In this document: piece by piece, positions 12,239 to 35,756 of the stretch | Numbering within the stretch: position 1 is the stretch's first letter | Layout of the letters: every line of letters starts with the position of its first letter | Assembly: GCA_029942185.1 (NCBI GenBank) | Contig: JAOZTK010000001.1 | Coordinates: 28,319 to 69,618, forward strand | DNA: 41,300 nt | Direction of reading: 5' to 3' | Source of the DNA: Flavobacteriaceae bacterium | Lineage (GTDB): Bacteria; Bacteroidota; Bacteroidia; Flavobacteriales; Flavobacteriaceae | The notes under the pieces: generated by a model | Seen by the model: only the letters and a program-made list of their open reading frames with translations | Told to the model about the DNA's origin: nothing | Databases searched by the model: none | Position numbers and translations under genes: made by a program

Positions 12239-13771
12239 TTAAGAGAGTTGATTAATAGCTGTACGCAAACGAGTAATAGTCTCTTCTTTACCGATCATTG
12301 CAGCAATATCAAAAACGTGGATTCCTTGCATACTACCCACCAAACTCAATCGAAACGACATAAGAACTTTCCCAAAACCCAATTCGTTTTTCTGTATCCA
12401 AGCTTTGATGTTCTCCTCAATATTTTTAGACGTGAAATCATTAATTCCTTCTAAAATTTCAATAACATTTTGCATTAAAATATCGGTTCCTTCTTTCCAA
12501 GCTTTTTTGGTTGCTTTTGGATCAAATGTATCGGGTGCCTTAAAAAAGTAGTGTCCTAAATCCCATAAATCAGCTACAAATGTCGCGCGTTCTTTTATGG
12601 ATGAAACAACCTGAATCACATAAGAATGGGCTTGCTGATGCAAACCGACTTCTTTCAATTCATCTTTAAAAAGCGTTTGAAAATCTTTTGCTAATTTCTC
12701 ATCATCTGCCATTTGCATGTACTGATGTTGGTACCACTTTGTTTTATCTAAATCAAACTTTGCACCACTTTTACTGACACGTTCTAAACTAAATGCATCC
12801 ACTAATTCTTCCAATTTAAAAAGTTCTTGTTCCGTACCAGGATTCCATCCCAAAAACGCGAGCATGTTGATAAAAGCTTCGGGAAAATAGCCGTCCTCAC
12901 GATAACCTCGTGATACATCTCCCGTTTTCTCATCGGTGTATTCCAATGGAAATACCGGAAAACCTAATTTATCCCCATCTCGTTTGCTCAACTTGCCTTT
13001 ACCTACCGGTTTCATCAATAATGGCAAATGTGCGAATTCAGGAGCTTTCCAATCAAATGCACGATATAATAAAATATGTAAAGCCATAGACGGCAACCAT
13101 TCTTCACCGCGAATTACATGTGAAATTTCCATTAAATGATCATCTACAATGTTGGCTAAATGATAAGTAGGCATGCCATCAGATTTATATAAAACCTTGT
13201 CATCTAATATATTCGTGTTGATTTTTACTTCTCCACGAATAAGGTCTTGTAAGACCAAGAGTTCATCTTTAGGGGTTTTAAACCGAATGACATACGGATC
13301 ACCTGTAGCAATTCTTCGATCCACTTCTTCCTTTGAAAGTGTCAGAGAATTATTCATCTCTTCACGATTGTGCCAATTATATATAAATGTTTCTTTGTTG
13401 GCTTCGCTATTTTTACGTTGTATATCAAGGGCTGCTGCTGTATCAAATGCATAATAACCCCAACCCGTATCAACTAATTGTTGGGCATATTTTTGATAAA
13501 TCATTTTACGTTCACTTTGTCGATAAGGACCGTAGCCGGCTTCTTTACCAATTCCTTCGTCATAAGGGATTCCCGACCAATTTAAAGCTTTAATAATATA
13601 TTTTTCTGCATTGGCGACATACCGCTTTTGATCGGTATCTTCGATACGAAGTATAAAAGTTCCTCCGTGCTTTTTAGCAAATAAATAATTGTATAAAGCG
13701 GTACGAACACCTCCAATATGTAGGGGTCCTGTTGGACTTGGAGCAAATCTTACCCTAATGTTTTTTGACAT
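12239..13771 (-). CDS. gltX: Glutamyl-tRNA synthetase
   Basis: VRFAPSPTGPLHIGGVRTALYNYLFA, KLSKRDGDKLGFPVFP; ATG at 13771 preferred over 13792. Confidence 0.95.
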   Translation of the reverse strand: MSKNIRVRFAPSPTGPLHIGGVRTALYNYLFAKKHGGTFILRIEDTDQKRYVANAEKYIIKALNWSGIPYDEGIGKEAGYGPYRQSERKMIYQKYAQQLVDTGWGYYAFDTAAALDIQRKNSEANKETFIYNWHNREEMNNSLTLSKEEVDRRIATGDPYVIRFKTPKDELLVLQDLIRGEVKINTNILDDKVLYKSDGMPTYHLANIVDDHLMEISHVIRGEEWLPSMALHILLYRAFDWKAPEFAHLPLLMKPVGKGKLSKRDGDKLGFPVFPLEYTDEKTGDVSRGYREDGYFPEAFINMLAFLGWNPGTEQELFKLEELVDAFSLERVSKSGAKFDLDKTKWYQHQYMQMADDEKLAKDFQTLFKDELKEVGLHQQAHSYVIQVVSSIKERATFVADLWDLGHYFFKAPDTFDPKATKKAWKEGTDILMQNVIEILEGINDFTSKNIEENIKAWIQKNELGFGKVLMSFRLSLVGSMQGIHVFDIAAMIGKEETITRLRTAINQLS

Positions 13772-14065
13772 AATATCAATATTTTTATGCAAATATAAAA
13801 TTATCAGTTGGAAAGTTTGAGATTTAAGGTTTAAAGTTTAAAGTTTAAATCAGCTCTTAATAATATGCCTGATTAAAATACACCAACAAAAGAAAAAGCC
13901 ATCACTGTATCCTAATACCATCCCTGGTGTAGATAAACTATAAACCTGAGTTATAAGAAAGTCAAGATCCTTTTAGCGATCACTACGATTTTTAGTTTTG
14001 GTTCTTGTGTATTTATAACAGATAAGAATCTTTTTTTTGTACTTTTATCCCTGTTATTTTTTTAG

Positions 14066-17000
14066 ATGAAAGCCTATAAGCAAATACAACAAAAATTACA
14101 CGGATTTATTCGTAAGTATTATACCAATGAGTTAATTAAAGGAAGCATCCTTTTTTTAGCTTTTGGCTTATTGTATTTTCTTTTTACTTTATTAGTAGAG
14201 CATTTTCTGTGGTTAAAACCCGATGCACGAACCCTTTTGTTTTGGATGTTTATCGCAGTTGAAATCGGTTTATTGATTCGTTATATCCTTATTCCTATAT
14301 TAAAACTCATAGGCTTGTCTAAAGGGATCAGCCTTGCTAAGGCTTCTTCTATAATTGGTGTTCATTTTAAAGAAATTGATGATAAGTTGTTAAACATGCT
14401 TCAATTGCAAGAGACCAATTCAAATCTTAAAAACGGACAAAAAAACGCTGAATTACTACTTGCCAGCATTGATCAAAAAGCTGCAAAATTACAACCCATT
14501 CCTTTTCAAAAAGCCATTCAATTTTCTACTAATAAAAAATATCTCAAGTATTTAATTATTCCCTTTGCTCTGTGGCTACTTACATTGTTTTCCGGAGAGA
14601 AAACAATGCTGCGAGATAGTTATAAGCGTGTCGTCAACCACCAACAAACCTACTTGCCACCGGCACCTTTTAGTTTTGAAATTACCAATAATAACCTAAA
14701 TGTAATAGAGGGAGAATCAATTCAGTTGAATATCCGTACAAATGGTGATCTTATTCCGGATGCCGCAAAAATCTTTTTTAACGACGAGTATTATTTTTTA
14801 AAAAATGAAGGAGCCGGTACTTTTACTTACAACTTTGAACACGTGGTGAAATCCATTAATTTTTACCTTCAAGGAAATAATGTGACTTCAAAAGCACATA
14901 CCATTAATCTTATTCCAACCCCAAAAATTCGTGGTATTCGTTTGTTTTTAAATTATCCTAATTACATCAAAAAAACGGATGAAAGAATTGATAATACCGG
15001 AAATATTATCGTTCCTTCAGGGACGGCGATAACATGGAATATCAATACCAAACAAACCGATTCTTTACACCTATTAAAAGAAAATGTACGTACTCTTTTC
15101 AATAAAAGTTCTGATATTCCGGATCTTTTTACCTTGACAAAACCCGCTTTAAAATCCTTTTCTTACAACATTCAAGCATCGAATAAACACTTGATAAATT
15201 ATGAAGATCTCTCTTTTAGTGTTGTGGTTATTCAAGATGAATATCCCGATATGACTATCAAAACAGATATTGACAGTATTTCACGTGGCTATGCTCAATT
15301 TGTAGGACATTTATCCGATGATTATGGAATATCTAAATTGCAACTTATGTATTTCCCAAAACTTCATAAAGAGGAAAGAATTACATACACAATTCCAATT
15401 CAAAAATCTTCTATTGTCAATTTTTACTATGTTTTTCCTACGGGACTTAAGCTTGAAGAAGGGTTCGATTATGAATTTTATTTTGAAACTTTTGATAATG
15501 ATTTAGTCACCGGACCTAAATCAGTAAAAAGTAAAGTTTATTCGTATCACAAAGACACAAAAACAGAAGAACAAGAAAAAATATTGCAAGAGCAAAAACA
15601 AGGTTTAGATGATTTACAGAAAACCTTGGAAAAACAAGAAAAAAATCAATTGGATTTAGACGCATTAAGAAAAGACTTACAAAACAAATCGGATATTGAG
15701 TTTAACGATACTAAAAAATTGAAAAAGTTTATTCAAAGACAAGAGGAATATCAACAAATGATGGAGCGACAAACGGAGGAATTACAAAGAAATCTCGACC
15801 AGCAACCTGAATTAAAAAACGAATTTCTTGAAAACAAAAAAGAAGATATTCAAAAACGGCTTCAAGAAGCAAAAGAAATTGCCAAACAAGACAAGTTATT
15901 AGAAGAATTACGAAAATTAGCCGAAAAATTACAAAAGGAAGATTTGTTGGATCGTATCAAGAAAATGAGTAAAAACAACAAACAACAAGAAAAAAGTTTA
16001 GAGCAATTGTTGGAGTTGACCAAAAGATTTTATGTAGAGCAAAAAGCGGAACAAATCAGAGAAAAACTCGAAGAATTAGCAAAAAAACAAGAAAAACTAG
16101 CAAAAAGTGAAGAAAATAGCGAAGAAAAGCAAAAAAAACTAAATAAGGAATTTGAAAAAATTCAACAAGATATGCTACAGTTGCAAAAAGACAACAAAGC
16201 GCTTAAAGAGCCTATGGAAATCGAGGCGCAAAAACCGGAACAAGAAGCGGTGAAAAAAGACCAACAAGAAGCCACCCAACAACTTCAACAGCAGCAACAA
16301 CAACAAGCGAGTAAAAAACAGAAATCCGCTGCTAAAAAAATGAAAGAAATGGCGCAAATCATGCAAATGCAAATGGCTGGTTCTTCGCAAGACATGATTG
16401 AAGAAGATATTGCCATGCTTCGTCAAATAATTGAAAACCTGATTACCTTTTCGTACAAACAAGAAAATTTGATGGACGCTTTAAGTGATTTACATAAAAA
16501 TCATCCAGGGTTTTCAAAAAAATTAAAAGAGCAAAATCAACTAAAAACATTTTTTGAGCATATTGATGATAGTTTATATGTGCTGTCTATGCGTCAGGCA
16601 AAACTCTCAAAACACATCAATACCTATTTAGCAAATGCACATTATTATTTAGATGAAACGCTTGTACAATTAGAAGAATTTAGAATTACTAAAGCGGTCT
16701 CAGATCAGCATTATGTAATGACTGCAGCAAATGACTTGGCCTTGTTATTGAGTTTAATGCTCGACAACATGCAAAGTTCTATGGGAATGGGAAAAGGAAA
16801 AGGAAAAGGAATGGGCATGGGAAAAGGAAAGGGTAGTGGTAAAGGATTTAGTTTGCCTGATATTATTAAAAAACAAGGCGAACTCAGTGAAAAAATGAAA
16901 CAAGGTATGAAAAAGGGTGAAAAACCAGGCGGTGAAAAAGATGGGAAAAAAGGAGAAAAGGGGGAATCCGGTAAAGGTGAAAAAAATGGAAAAGGGGGAC

Positions 17001-24746: not shown

Positions 24747-25127
24747 ATGAAACTAAATAATTATGTTGATATTTCAACAGTAGACAAAGAAGCAAAAAAA
24801 GATTACATCGACAGACATTCACCATTTATTTATTGTGCCGATGAAACGACAAAAAATGAAAAATTTAAGGTAACTGTAAAAGTAGGAAAAGAGTATTCGC
24901 ATCCGGATGATTTTGATCACTATATTTCGTACGTTCAATTATGGGATGGAGAAACTTTATTAGCACAAGCTAACTATGAACCTGGAACTCTAGGTAATAT
25001 GTCCAATCAATTAGAAGTAGATTTTTATGTGGTTCCTACAAAATCTAAAATGAAGTTATCTGCAGCAGCTTATTGTACCAAGCATGGACTTTGGACCAAT
25101 GAAACCAAAGTAGTAAAAGTAGTTTAA
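24747..25127 (+). CDS. Superoxide reductase (neelaredoxin/desulfoferrodoxin C-terminal domain)-like protein
   Basis: 126 aa; DRHSPFIYCA, VTVKVGKEYSHPDDFDHYISYVQLW, AAAYCTKHGLW give the Hx(n)HPxxxxxH...CxxH ligand pattern. Confidence 0.8.
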   Translation: MKLNNYVDISTVDKEAKKDYIDRHSPFIYCADETTKNEKFKVTVKVGKEYSHPDDFDHYISYVQLWDGETLLAQANYEPGTLGNMSNQLEVDFYVVPTKSKMKLSAAAYCTKHGLWTNETKVVKVV

Positions 25128-25416: not shown

Positions 25417-26322
25417 ATGTCTCATAAACATCACAAACCAACAGTAAGTGGAAAAAATCTTTTGATTACGATTTTTTTGAATGTATTGATTACAATCGCA
25501 CAATTGATAGGTGGCTTTATTTCAGGAAGTTTGGCATTGTTATCAGATGCGGTACACAACCTTTCTGATGTTTTAAGTTTGATTATTAGTTTTATAGCCA
25601 ACAGGCTTACACATAATAAAAAGCAAAACCTCAGCCAGACTTTTGGCTATAAGCGTGCCGAAATAATCGCTGCTTTTATCAATGCAGCTACGTTAATTGT
25701 AATTGCCATCATTTTAGGAATCGAAGCTATAAAACGATTTTATAATCCTGTAGAAATAGGAAGTAATATGGTTATTTGGCTCGCACTAATAGGTATTGCC
25801 GGAAATGGGTTGGGTGTGTTATTTCTAAAGAAAGATGCCGGGCACAATTTAAACATGCGTTCTGCCTATTTACATTTGTTAACCGATATGCTTTCTTCTA
25901 TTGCTGTATTAATAGGCGGTTTATTGATGAAGTTTTACCACGTTTATTGGATTGATGCAATTTTAACCTTGCTAATTTCTATTTATTTAGTTTATATGAG
26001 TTGGCGAATTTTTATAGATTCTTTAAAAATATTGATGCTTTTTGCCCCGGAGCATATCATTATAAAAGACATAGAAAAGGAGGTTTTAAAAATAGAAGAA
26101 ATAAAAAATATTCATCACGTGCACGTATGGCAACTCAATGATTATAACATTCATTTAGAAGCGCATATAGAATTTAATAAAGACGTGAAGCTATCTAAAT
26201 TCGACAGTATTTGTGAACAAATAGAAAAAGTTTTGGCAACAGATTTTGGTATTTATCACAGCAATTTACAACCTGAATTTAAACGCGATGATACAAAAGA
26301 ATTTATTATTCAAGATAGCTAA
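25417..26322 (+). CDS. Cation diffusion facilitator family transporter
   Basis: GGFISGSLALLSDAVHNLSDVLSLIISFIA, HLLTDMLSSIAVLIGG, IHHVHVWQLNDYNIHLEAHIEF. Confidence 0.93.
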   Translation: MSHKHHKPTVSGKNLLITIFLNVLITIAQLIGGFISGSLALLSDAVHNLSDVLSLIISFIANRLTHNKKQNLSQTFGYKRAEIIAAFINAATLIVIAIILGIEAIKRFYNPVEIGSNMVIWLALIGIAGNGLGVLFLKKDAGHNLNMRSAYLHLLTDMLSSIAVLIGGLLMKFYHVYWIDAILTLLISIYLVYMSWRIFIDSLKILMLFAPEHIIIKDIEKEVLKIEEIKNIHHVHVWQLNDYNIHLEAHIEFNKDVKLSKFDSICEQIEKVLATDFGIYHSNLQPEFKRDDTKEFIIQDS

Positions 26323-26375: not shown

Positions 26376-27554
26376 ATGATTATAAAACAAGTAATTGATG
26401 CACAAGAAGCATCTGATTTTCTAAAGCTCCCCATTTCATTATATAAAGAGAATCCTTATTGGATACGTCCGTTAGATAAAGATATAATAGGTGTTTTTGA
26501 CAGCAAAAAAAATACGGTAGTCCAAAAAGATAATTTTAAGCGCTGGTTGCTTTTTGATGAGCGAAAAAAAATTATTGGAAGAATAGCCGCTTTTGTCAAT
26601 ACGAAAACGGTAAATAAAAACAATGATTATCCGGTTGGAGGTGTTGGATTTTTCGAATGTATTAATAATCAAGAAGCGGCTGATTTATTATTTGATACAG
26701 CAAAAAATTGGCTTCAAAAACAAGGAGTAGAGGCGATGGAAGGTCCCATTAATTTTGGAGATCGCGATAGATGGTGGGGCTTATTAACAAAGGGTTTCGA
26801 TCAAGAACCTAATTATCTGGCAAATTTTAATTTTTCTTATTATCAGCGTCTTTTTGAGAATTACGGATTTAAGCTCTATTTTAATCAGTTTACCTTTAAA
26901 CGGGATATTCTGCTTAAATTACCCGAAGATTATATTAAAAAAGCAACACATATTTTTAACAATCCCGATTATAAATTTGAACATATTCGTAAAAAAAACT
27001 TAGATAAATATACGGAAGATTTTAGAACGATTTACAACAAAGCATGGGCAAAACATTTAGGTGTGTCTGAAATGAAATTCCGACAAGCAAAGGCGATAAT
27101 TAAGTCGCTTTTACCCGTTTTAGATGAAAAAGTAGCTTGGTTTGGCTATTATAAAAAGGAACCCATCGCTTTTTTTATCGCTGTTCCGGAAGTAAATCAG
27201 GTTTTTAAAAAACTTAACGGGAAATTGAATCTATGGGGAAAACTGATCTTTTTAAAACAAAAACTACTAAAGACAAACAAAAAACTTTTAGGGATTATCT
27301 TTGGAGTTATCCCAAAATATGACGGTAAAGGGGTAACGCAAGCAATTACCTATATCCTTCGAAATGTTATGGAAGAAAAAACAAATTATCGCATTTTTGA
27401 AATGCACGGAATCGGAGATTTTAATCCGGCAATGATTAAATTGATAGCTAAATTTGAAGGTTCTGAAAAATCAAAAATTCATACGACTTATCGTTATATA
27501 TTTGATAGAAACAGGCCTTATGTAAGAATGCCTATAAAAACAAAAGAAGAATAA
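26376..27554 (+). CDS. GNAT-superfamily acyltransferase, similar to bacterial ceramide synthase (bCerS)-type proteins
   Basis: LPISLYKENPYWIRPLDKDIIGVFDSKKN, IIGRIAAFVN, GGVGFFECINNQEAADLLFDTAKNWLQKQGVEAMEGPINFGDRDRWWGLL; first ATG at 26376. Confidence 0.7.
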   Translation: MIIKQVIDAQEASDFLKLPISLYKENPYWIRPLDKDIIGVFDSKKNTVVQKDNFKRWLLFDERKKIIGRIAAFVNTKTVNKNNDYPVGGVGFFECINNQEAADLLFDTAKNWLQKQGVEAMEGPINFGDRDRWWGLLTKGFDQEPNYLANFNFSYYQRLFENYGFKLYFNQFTFKRDILLKLPEDYIKKATHIFNNPDYKFEHIRKKNLDKYTEDFRTIYNKAWAKHLGVSEMKFRQAKAIIKSLLPVLDEKVAWFGYYKKEPIAFFIAVPEVNQVFKKLNGKLNLWGKLIFLKQKLLKTNKKLLGIIFGVIPKYDGKGVTQAITYILRNVMEEKTNYRIFEMHGIGDFNPAMIKLIAKFEGSEKSKIHTTYRYIFDRNRPYVRMPIKTKEE

Positions 27555-27555
27555 A

Positions 27556-28317
27556 ATGTCTAAAGGTTACGTTATAATTACCGGAGCTTATGGAGGACTT
27601 GGAAAAGCACTTTCTCTAGTTTATGCCAAAGAAGGTTTTGGAATTATTTTAATAGGAAGAAACAAAACAAAGCTTCAAGATTTAGATAGTAAATTAGCTG
27701 ATATAACGGAAGTAAAAAGCATAATTTGTGATATAAGTAATTGGGAGAGTTGTAAAAATGCTCATACTCAAATAACAGCACTTAACCTGCGCATTAAAAT
27801 TCTAATTAATAACGCAGGCATCACCTATATCCAAAATTTTAATAAAGATTATAAAATTGCTAAATACCGGGAATTGATTGATACGAATCTTAACGGAGCA
27901 GTTTATATGTCTCAACTTTTTATAGAGAATTTAACACAAAACAAAGGAAGTATCATCACTATTTCCAGTGTGATTGGTTACGCTCCGGTAATTGGCAGAA
28001 CAGCATATGCCGCCTCTAAATTTGGTTTAGAAGGCTTTTTCAGTGTCTTAAAAGCAGAACAAAACAACAGACTGCATATAATGATGGTGTATCCCACTTT
28101 TATTCAAACGCAAATTAGAGCTGTTGTAAAAGGAGATAAAACTATAAATGAAGTACTTACACCCCAAGAAGTCGCCGACAAAATAATAAAGGCTTATACC
28201 GAGAAAAAATCAAAAATTTATATTGGAAAAACAGCGAAACTCTCTTACTATTTATATAAATATTTCCCTAATTTCTATGTAAATTTGATGCGTAAAAAAG
28301 TAGCTGACGAAATTTAG
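27556..28317 (+). CDS. Short-chain dehydrogenase/reductase
   Basis: VIITGAYGGLGKALSLVYA, LINNAGITY, TISSVIG...YAASKFGLEGF. Confidence 0.92.
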   Translation: MSKGYVIITGAYGGLGKALSLVYAKEGFGIILIGRNKTKLQDLDSKLADITEVKSIICDISNWESCKNAHTQITALNLRIKILINNAGITYIQNFNKDYKIAKYRELIDTNLNGAVYMSQLFIENLTQNKGSIITISSVIGYAPVIGRTAYAASKFGLEGFFSVLKAEQNNRLHIMMVYPTFIQTQIRAVVKGDKTINEVLTPQEVADKIIKAYTEKKSKIYIGKTAKLSYYLYKYFPNFYVNLMRKKVADEI

Positions 28318-28349
28318 AATTTTCACAAAGACAAACAACCGAAAATTTG

Positions 28350-29342
28350 ATGAATAAACCCATAAACAATCTACTCAAAACAATAGGAAACACTCCTTTG
28401 GTTCGATTAAATAAATTGTGTAACGACTTTAATTGTGAAGTGTATGCGAAATTAGAATCTTTTAATCCTTCGATGTCTGTAAAAGACAGAATTGTAAATT
28501 ATATTATAGAAAAAGCGGAGAAAGAAGGAGTATTAAAACCCGGAATGACGATTGTAGATGCTACAAGTGGTAATACCGGTTTATCCATAGCTTTAATAGC
28601 GTTGATAAAAAATTACAAGTGTATTTTGACCGTAAAAGATAATTCGGCGATAGCAAAGATTCAACAATTGCAATTATATGGAGCACGTGTGATTAAGTGT
28701 CCAGCAAAAGCAAAACCCGAAGATCCTTTGTCCTATTACTCGATGGCAAAAAAAATTGTCAAAGAAACACCCAATGCTTTTTTTCTGGATCAAAATTTTA
28801 ACAACAATCATTTTAAAGCGCATTACAACAGTACAGGCAAAGAGTTGTGGAATCAAACAGACGGGAAAATTTCTCATTTCTTTACAAGCGCAAGTACAGG
28901 TGGAACTGTATCCGGAACAGGAGCGTTTTTAAAGAAGAAAAATCCAAATATTAAAATAATATGTGCAGATGGAAAAGGATCGGTGTTAAAGCCTTTCCAT
29001 GAAGAAGGAATCTACTACAAAGAGCTAAAAAAACAAACACCCCTAGAGGGAGTAGGAAAAGATATTATTCCTTCGGTTTTTCATGCAGATATTATTGATG
29101 AATGTGTAGAAGTAAATAATGAAAAGAGTATTCAAAACGCTTTAGATGTTTTAAAGAATGAAGGTATTTTTGCGGGAGGCTCTAGTGGCGCTGCTATAGA
29201 TGCTTTTAAACAATACCGGAAAAAGCATTCTGAAGAAAAAATAAGTATGGCCGTATTAAATTTTCCTGATCACGGATTAAAGTATATGGGAAAATTGTAC
29301 ACACCTGAATCAGAAGCTGAAAATGCAGCAGATTTATTCTAA
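28350..29342 (+). CDS. Cysteine-synthase-family PLP enzyme; candidate cysteate synthase
   Basis: LLKTIGNTPLVRLNKL, NPSMSVKDRIVNYII, DATSGNTGLSIALIAL, STGGTVSGTGAFLKKKNP; divergent TVKDNSAIAKIQQLQLYGA where CysK has a MPETMS..R-type loop. Confidence 0.8.
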   Translation: MNKPINNLLKTIGNTPLVRLNKLCNDFNCEVYAKLESFNPSMSVKDRIVNYIIEKAEKEGVLKPGMTIVDATSGNTGLSIALIALIKNYKCILTVKDNSAIAKIQQLQLYGARVIKCPAKAKPEDPLSYYSMAKKIVKETPNAFFLDQNFNNNHFKAHYNSTGKELWNQTDGKISHFFTSASTGGTVSGTGAFLKKKNPNIKIICADGKGSVLKPFHEEGIYYKELKKQTPLEGVGKDIIPSVFHADIIDECVEVNNEKSIQNALDVLKNEGIFAGGSSGAAIDAFKQYRKKHSEEKISMAVLNFPDHGLKYMGKLYTPESEAENAADLF

Positions 29343-29386
29343 AACAAAAAAACCTAAGTTTTTAAACAGACATTAAAGCACAAAAA

Positions 29387-30601
29387 ATGGATTTATTTGA
29401 TAAAATTAAAGCAAAACACGGACCTTTAAAAGATTATGCCGCTTCTAGTGAAGGCTATTATATGTTCCCAAAATTAGAAGGGGCGATTGGACCTAGAATG
29501 CAGTTTAATGGTAAGGAAGTTATTATGTGGAGTATCAATGACTATTTAGGTTTGGGAAATGATCCTGAAGTTCGGAGAAGAGATACAGAAGCCACCAAAA
29601 AATGGGGCTTAGCCTATCCGATGGGTGCAAGAATGATGTCCGGTCATACGGAAAAACACGCACAATTTGAAAAAGAAATCGCTGAGTTTCAAGAAAAAGA
29701 AGCAGCTTATTTATTGAATTATGGGTACCAAGGTGTTGTTTCTATCATTCAAAGCTTGGTAGATCGGCACGACGTAATTGTGTACGATTATGAATCGCAC
29801 GCTTGTATTGTCGACGGAGTTTCCTTACATTTAGGAAAACGTTTTGTTTTTGATCACAATGATATTGAGAGTTTAAAAAAACAATTGGTACGTGCTGAAA
29901 AAGTAATTAAAAAGACAGGAGGATCTATTTTGGTGGTATCAGAAGGCGTTTTTGGAATGCGCGGAGATCAAGGATTGTTAAAAGAAATTGTCGCTTTAAA
30001 AAAGGATTTTGAGTTTAGAATTTTTATAGATGATGCACACGGATTTGGAACATTAGGACCACAAGGACAGGGAGCTACTTTTGAACAAGGAATTCAAGAT
30101 GAGATAGATATATATTTTGCCACATTTGCTAAAAGTTTTGCGAGTATCGGTGCTTATGTAGCCTCTACAAAAGAAGTAATAAAGCATTTACAATATACAA
30201 TGCGCTCACAAATATTTGCAAAATCACTTCCGATGCCTATGGTTGAAGGCGCTTTATATAAACTTCATTTACTTCGTGAATCTACTGAGCAAAAAGATAA
30301 GTTGTGGCGCATCGTAAGATCCCTACAATCAGGTTTAAAAGAGATAGGATATGAAATTGGAGATACCAACTCAGCTGTAACGCCGATTTATTTAAAAGGC
30401 TCTATAGAAGACGCACGTAAAATTGTTTATGAGATGAGAGAAAAATACGGTGTTTTTACCTCTATGGTAGTGTATCCAGTGATTCCAAAAGGAATGATTA
30501 TTTTAAGAATTATTCCCACAGCTACACATACGATGAAAGAAGTTGAAGAAACAATTGAAGTTTTTAAAAAAATGAAACCCTTTATCGCTGCGTTAGCCTA
30601 A
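29387..30601 (+). CDS. Alpha-oxoamine synthase (serine palmitoyltransferase / cysteate fatty acyltransferase-like)
   Basis: MWSINDYLGLGNDPEVR, YESHACIVDGVSLHLGKRFVFDHND, SEGVFGMRGDQG, IDDAHGFGTLGPQGQG, TFAKSFASIGAYVAS. Confidence 0.85.
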   Translation: MDLFDKIKAKHGPLKDYAASSEGYYMFPKLEGAIGPRMQFNGKEVIMWSINDYLGLGNDPEVRRRDTEATKKWGLAYPMGARMMSGHTEKHAQFEKEIAEFQEKEAAYLLNYGYQGVVSIIQSLVDRHDVIVYDYESHACIVDGVSLHLGKRFVFDHNDIESLKKQLVRAEKVIKKTGGSILVVSEGVFGMRGDQGLLKEIVALKKDFEFRIFIDDAHGFGTLGPQGQGATFEQGIQDEIDIYFATFAKSFASIGAYVASTKEVIKHLQYTMRSQIFAKSLPMPMVEGALYKLHLLRESTEQKDKLWRIVRSLQSGLKEIGYEIGDTNSAVTPIYLKGSIEDARKIVYEMREKYGVFTSMVVYPVIPKGMIILRIIPTATHTMKEVEETIEVFKKMKPFIAALA

Positions 30602-30624: not shown

Positions 30625-31257
30625 TTAAAACCCAATTGAAACACTTACGGGAACCATAATATGATGTATATAAGATTCTTTATAAACCTCTAAAACACCT
30701 AGCTCAGCTCTTGCACTGATACGAACCCGATCGCTTAGATTAAACCCAAAACCCGAAAAGACCCTTATATCCAATTTTTCCGGAGTTTCACTTCCTGTAT
30801 TTGATACTAAAAAAGAAGGACTTCCACCGATTGTAAAGAATAGTTTTTTATTTCTTGAAACGAAAATATTATAGGATATGGCAATATCTAAATATGAAAA
30901 ATCTCTATCGAGTATAACCATATTAATTTCATCCAAAATATCGTAATTAAAATTAATTTCGTCATAAATTTTAGTGGTTGTATAATTAACTTCCAGCATA
31001 CTAAACCCAAATCCATCCTTGTATGCAGCAAATCCACCGAATTGATAATTATAAGTTATATCCGCATAATGAGGCACACCCTTTACCACATCATCCCCTT
31101 GTAAAACACTTCCGATACTGTTGTTTATTTTAATATCAGGTAAAATAGCTGAATTAAGTAACACACTTGCTTTTACTCCATAAGAAAGATTATTTTGAGC
31201 AAATGAGACTACTGCAAAAAGAAAAAGAAATACAATACTTAAAGATTTTTTAAACAT
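30625..31257 (-). CDS. Outer membrane beta-barrel-like protein, hypothetical
   Basis: Signal peptide MFKKSLSIVFLFLFAVVSFAQ; alternating beta-strand pattern ending in VSIGF. Confidence 0.65.
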   Translation of the reverse strand: MFKKSLSIVFLFLFAVVSFAQNNLSYGVKASVLLNSAILPDIKINNSIGSVLQGDDVVKGVPHYADITYNYQFGGFAAYKDGFGFSMLEVNYTTTKIYDEINFNYDILDEINMVILDRDFSYLDIAISYNIFVSRNKKLFFTIGGSPSFLVSNTGSETPEKLDIRVFSGFGFNLSDRVRISARAELGVLEVYKESYIHHIMVPVSVSIGF

Positions 31258-33949: not shown

Positions 33950-35668
33950 TTATTTTATCACTAGTTTTTGAGTAGCGAAATGATTATTTTCTTCAATGTT
34001 GATAATGTAAATTCCACTATTTAAATTGGATATATCAATACTTGTTTTAGCAGTGGTTTGTGTGAAAACAACTTTTCCTAGCAGATCAAATATTTGAATA
34101 TTTTTATCAGAATTATTTAATGTGCTAATGTTAATAATACCATGAGTAACCGGATTTGGATATAAGGAAAAACCTTCAATTACATTTTGTTGGTCTACAC
34201 TTAGAATATCGCTGGTATCACGTGGTGTTACTTGAGGAGTTCCATTGTATCCACTGACAATACAAGTATAGTCCATAGGAATTAGTGGTAAATCAGTACC
34301 TATATAATTAGCATCAAAAAAATCTGTTCTTAAAATAGAAGTACCGGATGCGTCGGTAATATCATAGTTGGTCCCCGTTTGGAAGGTGCCATCTCCACCG
34401 GAAACATCGGCAATACTAACTTGTGCTATTTGGACGAGTTCAGATTCGTACTCTGCCAAACCTTTGCTTGTTAAATCAGCAAGTGTAATTACTTCGGGTG
34501 TGACGACATTACCTGTTGAATTAAGTCCGGGATCAGTCGTTGGTACAAACTGCAATACTTGGTTATAAGAAGCTAATTTTCCTCTTAAATTTACAACACC
34601 ATCTCCTTCGTTATAGGCAGTAGTAATAACCTCATCCGGATCATGGATTTTCATACCCGCTGTTGCATCTTGCACCCATTTTTGATTGTTATATTCTTGT
34701 GCGTAGGTGCCAAAAACTTCACCGGTTACTTTATAATATTCTCCTTCTGTACCAGCTCGTAAAGCAGCTAAATTAGCAACGTTTGTATAAGATGCAATAT
34801 CAAAAGCGACTTGATCGTTTACTTCAGGAGATAATACAGCCCCTGAGTTATCAACTAATTCCATATAAAAAGTGTGGGAACCAGCGGCCAAACCAGATAA
34901 AGCGATAGGGTCAGTAGTATAATACGATGTAGCACTACCACCATCTAGGGTGTACTTAATATAACCATCGCCACCAGAACTTGCAACGGCAAAATTGGCA
35001 ACATTAAAAAGAACATCAAAATCAGTTATTTCAGGGTTATAAGTAGTATTGGCAGGGTATGATATAGAAATTGATGGGTCAGGGGAAGCAGAATATATAT
35101 ATGCGCCTGCAGGGAATGGTATCGCTGCAGTTGCATTTGTTGTTTCACCATCAAATGCATTTATTCCACTAAAGAACCAGTTAGCCAAAACAAAAGTATT
35201 TCCATCAGGTCCGGTACCATCAGCTCTATATGCCCAACCATCTAGATATTCCCACGGTTCGTCAGTACCATCTACATCAATTAAACCAAAAAGATCTATC
35301 ACACCTCCATTCATAAACAATTCAATAGCATCATCACCATTTATTGCCATTGCACCTGAAGTGTAATTCGGAGCAAACCCGAAAAAATTAGTAAACTCTA
35401 CATCCTCAGAAGCTATATAAAGAAAATCACCGGCAGTAGCAGCATCAGCGGGAAAAGTAAATTCTTCACCGTCAGAACCGTCTCCGTTATTTGCACTTCC
35501 AACTCCATAGATACTTAAATTAGGAATATTGTTTACTACGTATAGTTCTACGCCTTTTGGGACACCACCCGTAAGGGGTCCATCAAAAGTTCCAGTAATT
35601 ATTAGATCTTGTCCAAAAGACAAACTAGTCACTAAAATTGTGACCAATAATAAATAAATTTTTTTCAT
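33950..35668 (-). CDS. Secreted T9SS substrate with lamin-tail-like N-terminal region and DUF5689/OB-fold-like segment
   Basis: Signal peptide MKKIYLLLVTILVTSLSFGQ; KGVELYVVNNIPNLSIYGVG...INGDDAIELF; C-terminal FSLYPNPVTHGIINIS...LNSGIYIINIEENNHFATQKLVIK (type A CTD). Confidence 0.85.
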   Translation of the reverse strand: MKKIYLLLVTILVTSLSFGQDLIITGTFDGPLTGGVPKGVELYVVNNIPNLSIYGVGSANNGDGSDGEEFTFPADAATAGDFLYIASEDVEFTNFFGFAPNYTSGAMAINGDDAIELFMNGGVIDLFGLIDVDGTDEPWEYLDGWAYRADGTGPDGNTFVLANWFFSGINAFDGETTNATAAIPFPAGAYIYSASPDPSISISYPANTTYNPEITDFDVLFNVANFAVASSGGDGYIKYTLDGGSATSYYTTDPIALSGLAAGSHTFYMELVDNSGAVLSPEVNDQVAFDIASYTNVANLAALRAGTEGEYYKVTGEVFGTYAQEYNNQKWVQDATAGMKIHDPDEVITTAYNEGDGVVNLRGKLASYNQVLQFVPTTDPGLNSTGNVVTPEVITLADLTSKGLAEYESELVQIAQVSIADVSGGDGTFQTGTNYDITDASGTSILRTDFFDANYIGTDLPLIPMDYTCIVSGYNGTPQVTPRDTSDILSVDQQNVIEGFSLYPNPVTHGIINISTLNNSDKNIQIFDLLGKVVFTQTTAKTSIDISNLNSGIYIINIEENNHFATQKLVIK

Positions 35669-35756
35669 AATAGTATATTTAAATTTTAAAAATAAAGCAG
35701 TCACAAAGTTACAAAAAGTTTATGATATATCAGAGGGGAACGACCGATGAAAAAAA

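Follow-up and report, generated by a model that had tools for sequence, protein, structure and literature searches.

A four-gene operon of a Flavobacteriaceae bacterium with the make-up of a sulfonolipid pathway and a candidate N-acyltransferase related to bacterial ceramide synthases

Introduction

Sulfonolipids matter in gliding, in the induction of choanoflagellate rosettes and in gut inflammation. The closest described systems for their synthesis are the CapA–CapB–CapC capnine pathway of Capnocytophaga ochracea and Ornithobacterium (Liu et al. 2022, as far as it is recounted in PMC10191378 and PMC12927429), whose three enzymes are already known (PMC10191378; PMC12927429), and the Cys–CFAT–KCR pathway of Chryseobacterium gleum (PMC11211663), where CFAT stands for cysteate fatty-acyltransferase and KCR for 3-ketocapnine reductase. 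The KCR genes of C. gleum and Alistipes finegoldii lie apart from cfat and cys (PMC11211663), and the cysteate synthase of A. finegoldii is said to be of the archaeal type (PMC10191378). The literature that we searched treats N-acylation of sulfonolipids as a step without a named enzyme, and no named sulfonolipid N-acyltransferase was found in it; most subscription papers and all preprints lay outside this search, so that a recent report is possible. Here we describe a four-gene operon in the genome of a Flavobacteriaceae bacterium (GCA_029942185.1, or G000; 2.2 Mb, 204 contigs, 97% complete). It lies in a stretch of 41,300 nucleotides (contig JAOZTK010000001.1, positions 28,319 to 69,618), the whole of which we call the window, and encodes a GCN5-related N-acetyltransferase (GNAT)-type protein, a short-chain dehydrogenase/reductase (SDR), a CapA-like pyridoxal 5'-phosphate (PLP) enzyme and an alpha-oxoamine synthase (AOS).

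This locus shares with the described pathways a step resembling cysteate synthase, a CFAT step and an SDR reductase step. It differs from them in that its CapA-like protein is divergent and in that reductase and N-acyltransferase candidates lie in the same operon. We regard it as a variant of the known sulfonolipid pathway; its interest lies in tying a widespread, so far unassigned group of proteins, clade B of the bacterial ceramide-synthase (bCerS) family, to this pathway.

An alpha-oxoamine synthase of the CFAT clade

In the PDB, the AOS is most similar to 28eh, a cysteate-C-fatty acyltransferase (554 bits, 60% identity), and to the SulA protein of A. finegoldii (7u7h; 510 bits, 56%); serine palmitoyltransferase (SPT) reaches 210 bits and 31%. 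An earlier note on this DNA had read the gene as an SPT-like AOS that makes 3-ketocapnine, a reading that clustering with 2-amino-3-ketobutyrate CoA ligase (KBL) or BioF would have contradicted. In a tree of 95 rows it groups with neither of these, nor with SPT, but falls within the CFAT clade at 100/100. With SulA (PDB 7u7h; PMC9304779) it shares, besides this level of identity, the catalytic residues, i.e. equivalents of Asn53, His140, Lys251 and Arg376, and Lys281, the residue that sets SulA apart from Spt, SPT having Ala there (PMC9304779). At the Lys281 position, the window enzyme and every one of the 74 CFAT-like rows have Lys; the 15 SPT-like rows, among them the KBL of G000 itself, all have Ala or Asn. 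Unlike SulA, however, the window enzyme belongs to a separate branch within the CFAT clade that is formed by the CFATs of its genus. The only other AOS of G000 groups with E. coli KBL, and a search at E 1e-90 found no SPT in this genome; metagenome-assembled genomes may miss genes, which makes this and the other absences from G000 reported below provisional. By its predicted activity, the AOS is almost certainly a cysteate fatty-acyltransferase (CFAT/SulA/CapB).

In other Bacteroidota families, CFAT-like domains also occur in a much longer protein. Open reading frames (ORFs) of about 1160 aa in L214 (2100-5573; G255:C158) and L215 (2337-5849; G179:C1) encode an acyl-AMP ligase fused to a phosphopantetheine carrier and to a CFAT-like AOS, with the Lys281 equivalent present in L214, and G219:C210 carries a similar long frame. 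This fusion suggests a self-loading acyl-carrier cysteate acyltransferase.

A tandem-GNAT protein related to bacterial ceramide synthases

The protein encoded by the first gene was not recognised by Pfam, by NCBIfam or by a single-sequence search of the PDB. Nearly all of the matches that a profile of its family found in the PDB, weak as they were, are GNAT acetyltransferases, aligned at the C-terminal acyl-donor motif. Its AlphaFold2 model (pLDDT 92.3) has tandem-GNAT proteins as best Foldseek matches with probability 1.00, so that the modelled structure confirms a tandem-GNAT fold and the previous assignment of this gene to the GNAT family holds.

In our survey of 297 Bacteroidota genomes, for which profiles separating clades A and B were built, the family is present in 287. 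It splits into these two clades at 100/100, with which a larger quick tree agrees. Clade A directly adjoins SPT in more than 50 of the 297 genomes, as judged from gene coordinates, and a clade-A relative in Rubrobacter sits in an AOS–GNAT–oxidoreductase operon. In Roseomonas and Diaphorobacter, LptF/LptG genes and one further gene are followed by a clade-A GNAT and a nucleotidyltransferase, and in Caulobacter lptF2/lptG2 (CC_1156, CC_1155) neighbour cerS CC_1154 (PMC11324152). With plasmid-borne relatives serving as proxies for CC_1154, these SPT-adjacent and Caulobacter-like layouts equate clade A with the bCerS family on the strength of synteny. Besides the window protein, clade B takes in many genes that stand alone in Cytophagales, Chitinophagales and other Bacteroidota. 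The window protein is 23–25% identical over its whole length to the Roseomonas and Rubrobacter members in sphingolipid-type clusters, yet it falls on the opposite side of the 100/100 branch from the SPT-adjacent and proteobacterial bCerS-syntenic members. The earlier description of it as bCerS-like is thus right with respect to full-length homology and the shared tandem-GNAT architecture, but the protein stands outside the bCerS clade proper, in a clade that tracks CFAT and not SPT.

A further lipid link is a fatty-acid hydroxylase gene found about 29 bp upstream of the clade-B GNAT gene in 11/77 loci (e.g. L105 6970-7902); in Roseomonas, a sterol-desaturase-family gene (L232 9322-10089) likewise precedes the bCerS-family gene.

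Co-occurrence of clade B with CFAT

Clade B co-occurs strictly with CFAT. All 56 of the 297 genomes that carry it have CFAT, as opposed to none of the 188 CFAT-less genomes (Fisher p 3e-30), and at the family level it is found in 10/14 CFAT and 0/36 CFAT-less families (p 1e-7), both values being uncorrected for phylogeny. It is absent from all 179 genomes with SPT and without CFAT. Where CFAT and SPT occur together, clade A is always present (45/45) and clade B is found in addition in 28 genomes; among genomes with CFAT and without SPT, 59/64 carry either a clade-A or a clade-B GNAT, which makes the two clades look interchangeable. Taken together, the counts indicate that a GNAT of this family nearly always accompanies CFAT and that clade B is confined to genomes with CFAT. 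In G000, no match to clade A was obtained.

Two positions follow the partner enzyme. F127 is found in 94/98 stand-alone proteins (nearly all clade B) and in 19/19 clade-A proteins adjacent to CFAT, whereas clade-A proteins adjacent to SPT have Pro there in 10/11; T371 occurs in 96/98 and 18/19, respectively, with mostly Met in SPT-adjacent clade A. This pattern could be a specificity signature or could reflect shared ancestry.

The proposed pathway and its reductase

As the earlier note had it, the four genes are co-directional and closely spaced, with gaps of 1, 32 and 44 bp (table 1), and Pfam and NCBIfam assign the second to fourth products to the SDR, cysteine-synthase-fold PLP enzyme and AOS families that it had named. 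Three further members of the genus keep the GNAT–SDR–CapA-like block, with GNAT proteins 83, 76 and 72% identical to that of the window, which takes the operon beyond chance; these relatives are metagenome-assembled genomes named Lutibacter sp. CSMAG_642 or Flavobacteriaceae bacterium. In G297 and G302 the block and the CFAT gene that follows it share a contig, whereas in G301, where the block sits at a contig end, CFAT is on another.

We infer the following division of labour. The CapA-like enzyme would make cysteate, from phosphoserine and sulfite by analogy with CapA; CFAT would condense it with an acyl donor (acyl-ACP, i.e. acyl carrier protein-bound, in SulA) to 3-ketocapnine; the SDR would reduce the ketone to give capnine; and the clade-B GNAT would attach the amide-linked fatty acid, yielding N-acylcapnine. 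That the operon as a whole makes a sulfonolipid is very likely, and we are only slightly less confident that it encodes the complete N-acylcapnine pathway with the steps as proposed. For the GNAT, SDR and CapA-like proteins, the substrates are deduced, as is the order of reduction and N-acylation.

The SDR (PF00106, 145.6 bits) has the motifs TGAYGGLG and YAASK, corresponding to TGxxxGxG and YxxxK. Its identity is about 30% to SDRs encoded divergently next to clade-B GNAT genes in other Flavobacteriales and 28% to one from another family (L211) whose gene overlaps cfat. Since several verified 3-ketocapnine reductases exist that are mutually dissimilar (PMC11211663), its role is assigned from context, and it is proposed to be the 3-ketocapnine reductase (CapC/KCR role). 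A second SDR follows capA in variants of the locus (L089, whose length and content agree with the G297 contig, and L090, which agrees likewise with that of G301), and that of L089 groups at 100/99 with the cfat-overlapping SDR of L211. It was considered as the reductase here and dropped, as no orthologue was found in G000, which leaves the operon SDR as the sole reductase in the operon. In L089, the stretch between the capA-like gene and cfat (12958-14830) encodes, besides this SDR, a glyoxalase-family protein with two domains.

In a variant of the same pathway, N-acylation would come before reduction, with the SDR acting on N-acyl-3-ketocapnine. This order has been proposed for Caulobacter ceramide and its bCerS, a member of the same GNAT family (PMC11087976). 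However, the Caulobacter reductase CerR is periplasmic (PMC11087976) and the operon has a classical SDR, and the verified 3-ketocapnine reductases use the free base (PMC11211663). We therefore see this order as possible, with the odds clearly favouring reduction first.

The role of the clade-B GNAT protein

We think it probable that the GNAT protein is the N-acyltransferase of the sulfonolipid, with capnine or 3-ketocapnine as acceptor. A number of observations speak against so direct an assignment. The co-occurrence counts of clade B and CFAT are phylogenetically non-independent, and only 56/109 CFAT genomes have clade B at all. Other Flavobacteriaceae carry a clade-A GNAT instead, which in 21/28 genomes having one lies, in convergent orientation, no more than 1 kb from CFAT. 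G302, a member of the genus, has both clades, and clade B adjacent to CFAT was not seen outside this genus in the loci examined.

The same distribution, with about half of the CFAT genomes lacking clade B and a clade-A GNAT mostly standing beside CFAT in the other Flavobacteriaceae, could mean that the operon makes 3-ketocapnine or capnine and that the clade-B GNAT acylates something else, e.g. by O-acylation of the finished lipid, the amide being formed by another enzyme. Yet G000 shows no clade-A protein that might do so, nearly all genomes with CFAT and without SPT have a GNAT of one clade or the other, and F127 and T371 are common to clade B and CFAT-adjacent clade A and not to SPT-adjacent clade A. 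Another target thus appears rather improbable, and N-acylation of the sulfonolipid base remains our preferred role. G297 also has an SPT-like AOS beside a clade-A-type GNAT, possibly as contamination.

The earlier note had singled out the linkage of the N-acyltransferase to the other steps in one operon. This stands in so far as only this genus puts clade B and CFAT in one operon, and it is the complete operon, running in one direction and including a clade-B GNAT, that is special; a GNAT beside CFAT as such is not unique, being found with clade A in most other Flavobacteriaceae. The operon may thus serve as a 'Rosetta stone' that points to clade B as the sulfonolipid N-acyltransferase, likely the missing last step of the pathway. 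On balance we lean towards a still broader reading, in which clade B would be a bCerS paralogue dedicated to sulfonolipid N-acylation across Cytophagales, Chitinophagales, Weeksellaceae-type genomes and others, clade A serving serine-derived and clade B cysteate-derived bases; other Flavobacteriaceae would have swapped in clade A, and this genus has clade B in its operon. If the clades are indeed split by base, F127 and T371 become candidate residues for selecting the sulfonated base. Strict co-occurrence and the presence in one operon make this candidate enzyme directly testable in culturable relatives (Algoriphagus, Chryseobacterium).

The source of cysteate

The best NCBIfam model for the CapA-like protein is CysteaSynCapA (NF053679). 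In keeping with the unusual substrate loop pointed out before, its loop TVKDNSAIAKIQQL resembles that of CapAs in having no MPE motif, which E. coli CysK and CBS do possess; the protein retains the catalytic PLP lysine (SVKDR) and the TSGNTG and GGSSGAA motifs. The position next to CFAT is kept in L091, with two genes intervening in L089, and CapA–CFAT adjacency is also seen in other Flavobacteriaceae and in the next family. No orthodox CapA was found in G000. The one other full-length CapA-like protein of this genome, a paralogue on contig C109, is 46% identical to the operon protein and was considered as the real CapA; it has an orthologue at 65–92% identity in 13/14 other genomes checked and was rejected as a housekeeping copy, so that the CapA slot falls to the protein of the operon. 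Most of those genomes have a separate second homologue, which in Flavobacteriaceae is the CFAT-adjacent CapA.

With respect to cysteate supply, it has to be weighed that the operon protein scores 373 bits on the CapA model, far below the curated cut-off of 600, and that the housekeeping C109 paralogue scores 459; both make the cysteate source uncertain. CFAT-adjacent CapAs reach 650 bits in the same family, 548 in the next family and 508 in a third protein scanned; the latter two are also below the cut-off. What had been described as a CysK-like gene is thus a cysteine-synthase-fold PLP enzyme nearest to CapA, but not an orthodox CapA. That it supplies cysteate nevertheless appears likely.

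Alternatively, it might make a different amino acid, which the divergent CFAT would build into a new lipid head group. The CapA-like proteins of the genus form a long branch of their own (93/96), i.e. a fast-diverging, genus-only lineage scoring below all the other CFAT-adjacent CapAs scanned, and the CFATs of the genus are likewise a separate branch. Against this, CFAT retains Lys281, Asn53, His140 and Arg376, and the CapA-like protein has its PLP-binding motifs intact and a loop that lacks MPE, as in CapAs. A new head group is accordingly a slim prospect, even somewhat slimmer than another GNAT target, and cysteate stays the favoured product.

Finally, a sphingolipid (dihydroceramide) operon of SPT, 3-ketosphinganine reductase and ceramide synthase plus an unrelated cysteine synthase, as the homology of the GNAT to bCerS and of the AOS to SPT might suggest, is highly improbable and was rejected on the tree placement of the AOS, its far greater identity to CFATs than to SPT and its Lys281, with clade B never found without CFAT in our survey, not even in the many genomes that have SPT.

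Operon layout and neighbouring genes

The coordinates of the operon genes are given in table 1. An alternative TTG start of the CapA-like ORF is possible at 28347.

Table 1. Genes of the proposed sulfonolipid operon and the gene that follows it, in window coordinates.
Feature	Coordinates	Strand	Basis
Tandem-GNAT acyltransferase, clade B of bacterial ceramide-synthase family, 392 aa from ATG	26376..27554	+	AlphaFold2/Foldseek, tree, co-occurrence
Classical SDR, 253 aa, proposed 3-ketocapnine reductase (CapC/KCR role)	27556..28317	+	PF00106, motifs
Divergent CapA-like PLP enzyme, 330 aa from ATG, proposed cysteate synthase	28350..29342	+	NCBIfam CysteaSynCapA, slot beside CFAT, motifs
Cysteate fatty-acyltransferase (CFAT/SulA/CapB), 404 aa, predicted	29387..30601	+	PDB identity, tree, Lys281 equivalent
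Convergent gene downstream of operon	30625-31257	-	

A CDF transporter gene upstream (25417-26322) was considered as a further operon member and dropped, as about 1 kb and another gene intervene in a relative. Further upstream, 24747-25127 encodes a desulfoferrodoxin-family protein; desulfoferrodoxin is an oxygen-stress protein common in low-oxygen organisms. On the other side of the operon, the product of 33950-35704 is a secreted protein that combines a DUF5689 domain with a sorting tail for type IX secretion (Por_Secre_tail).

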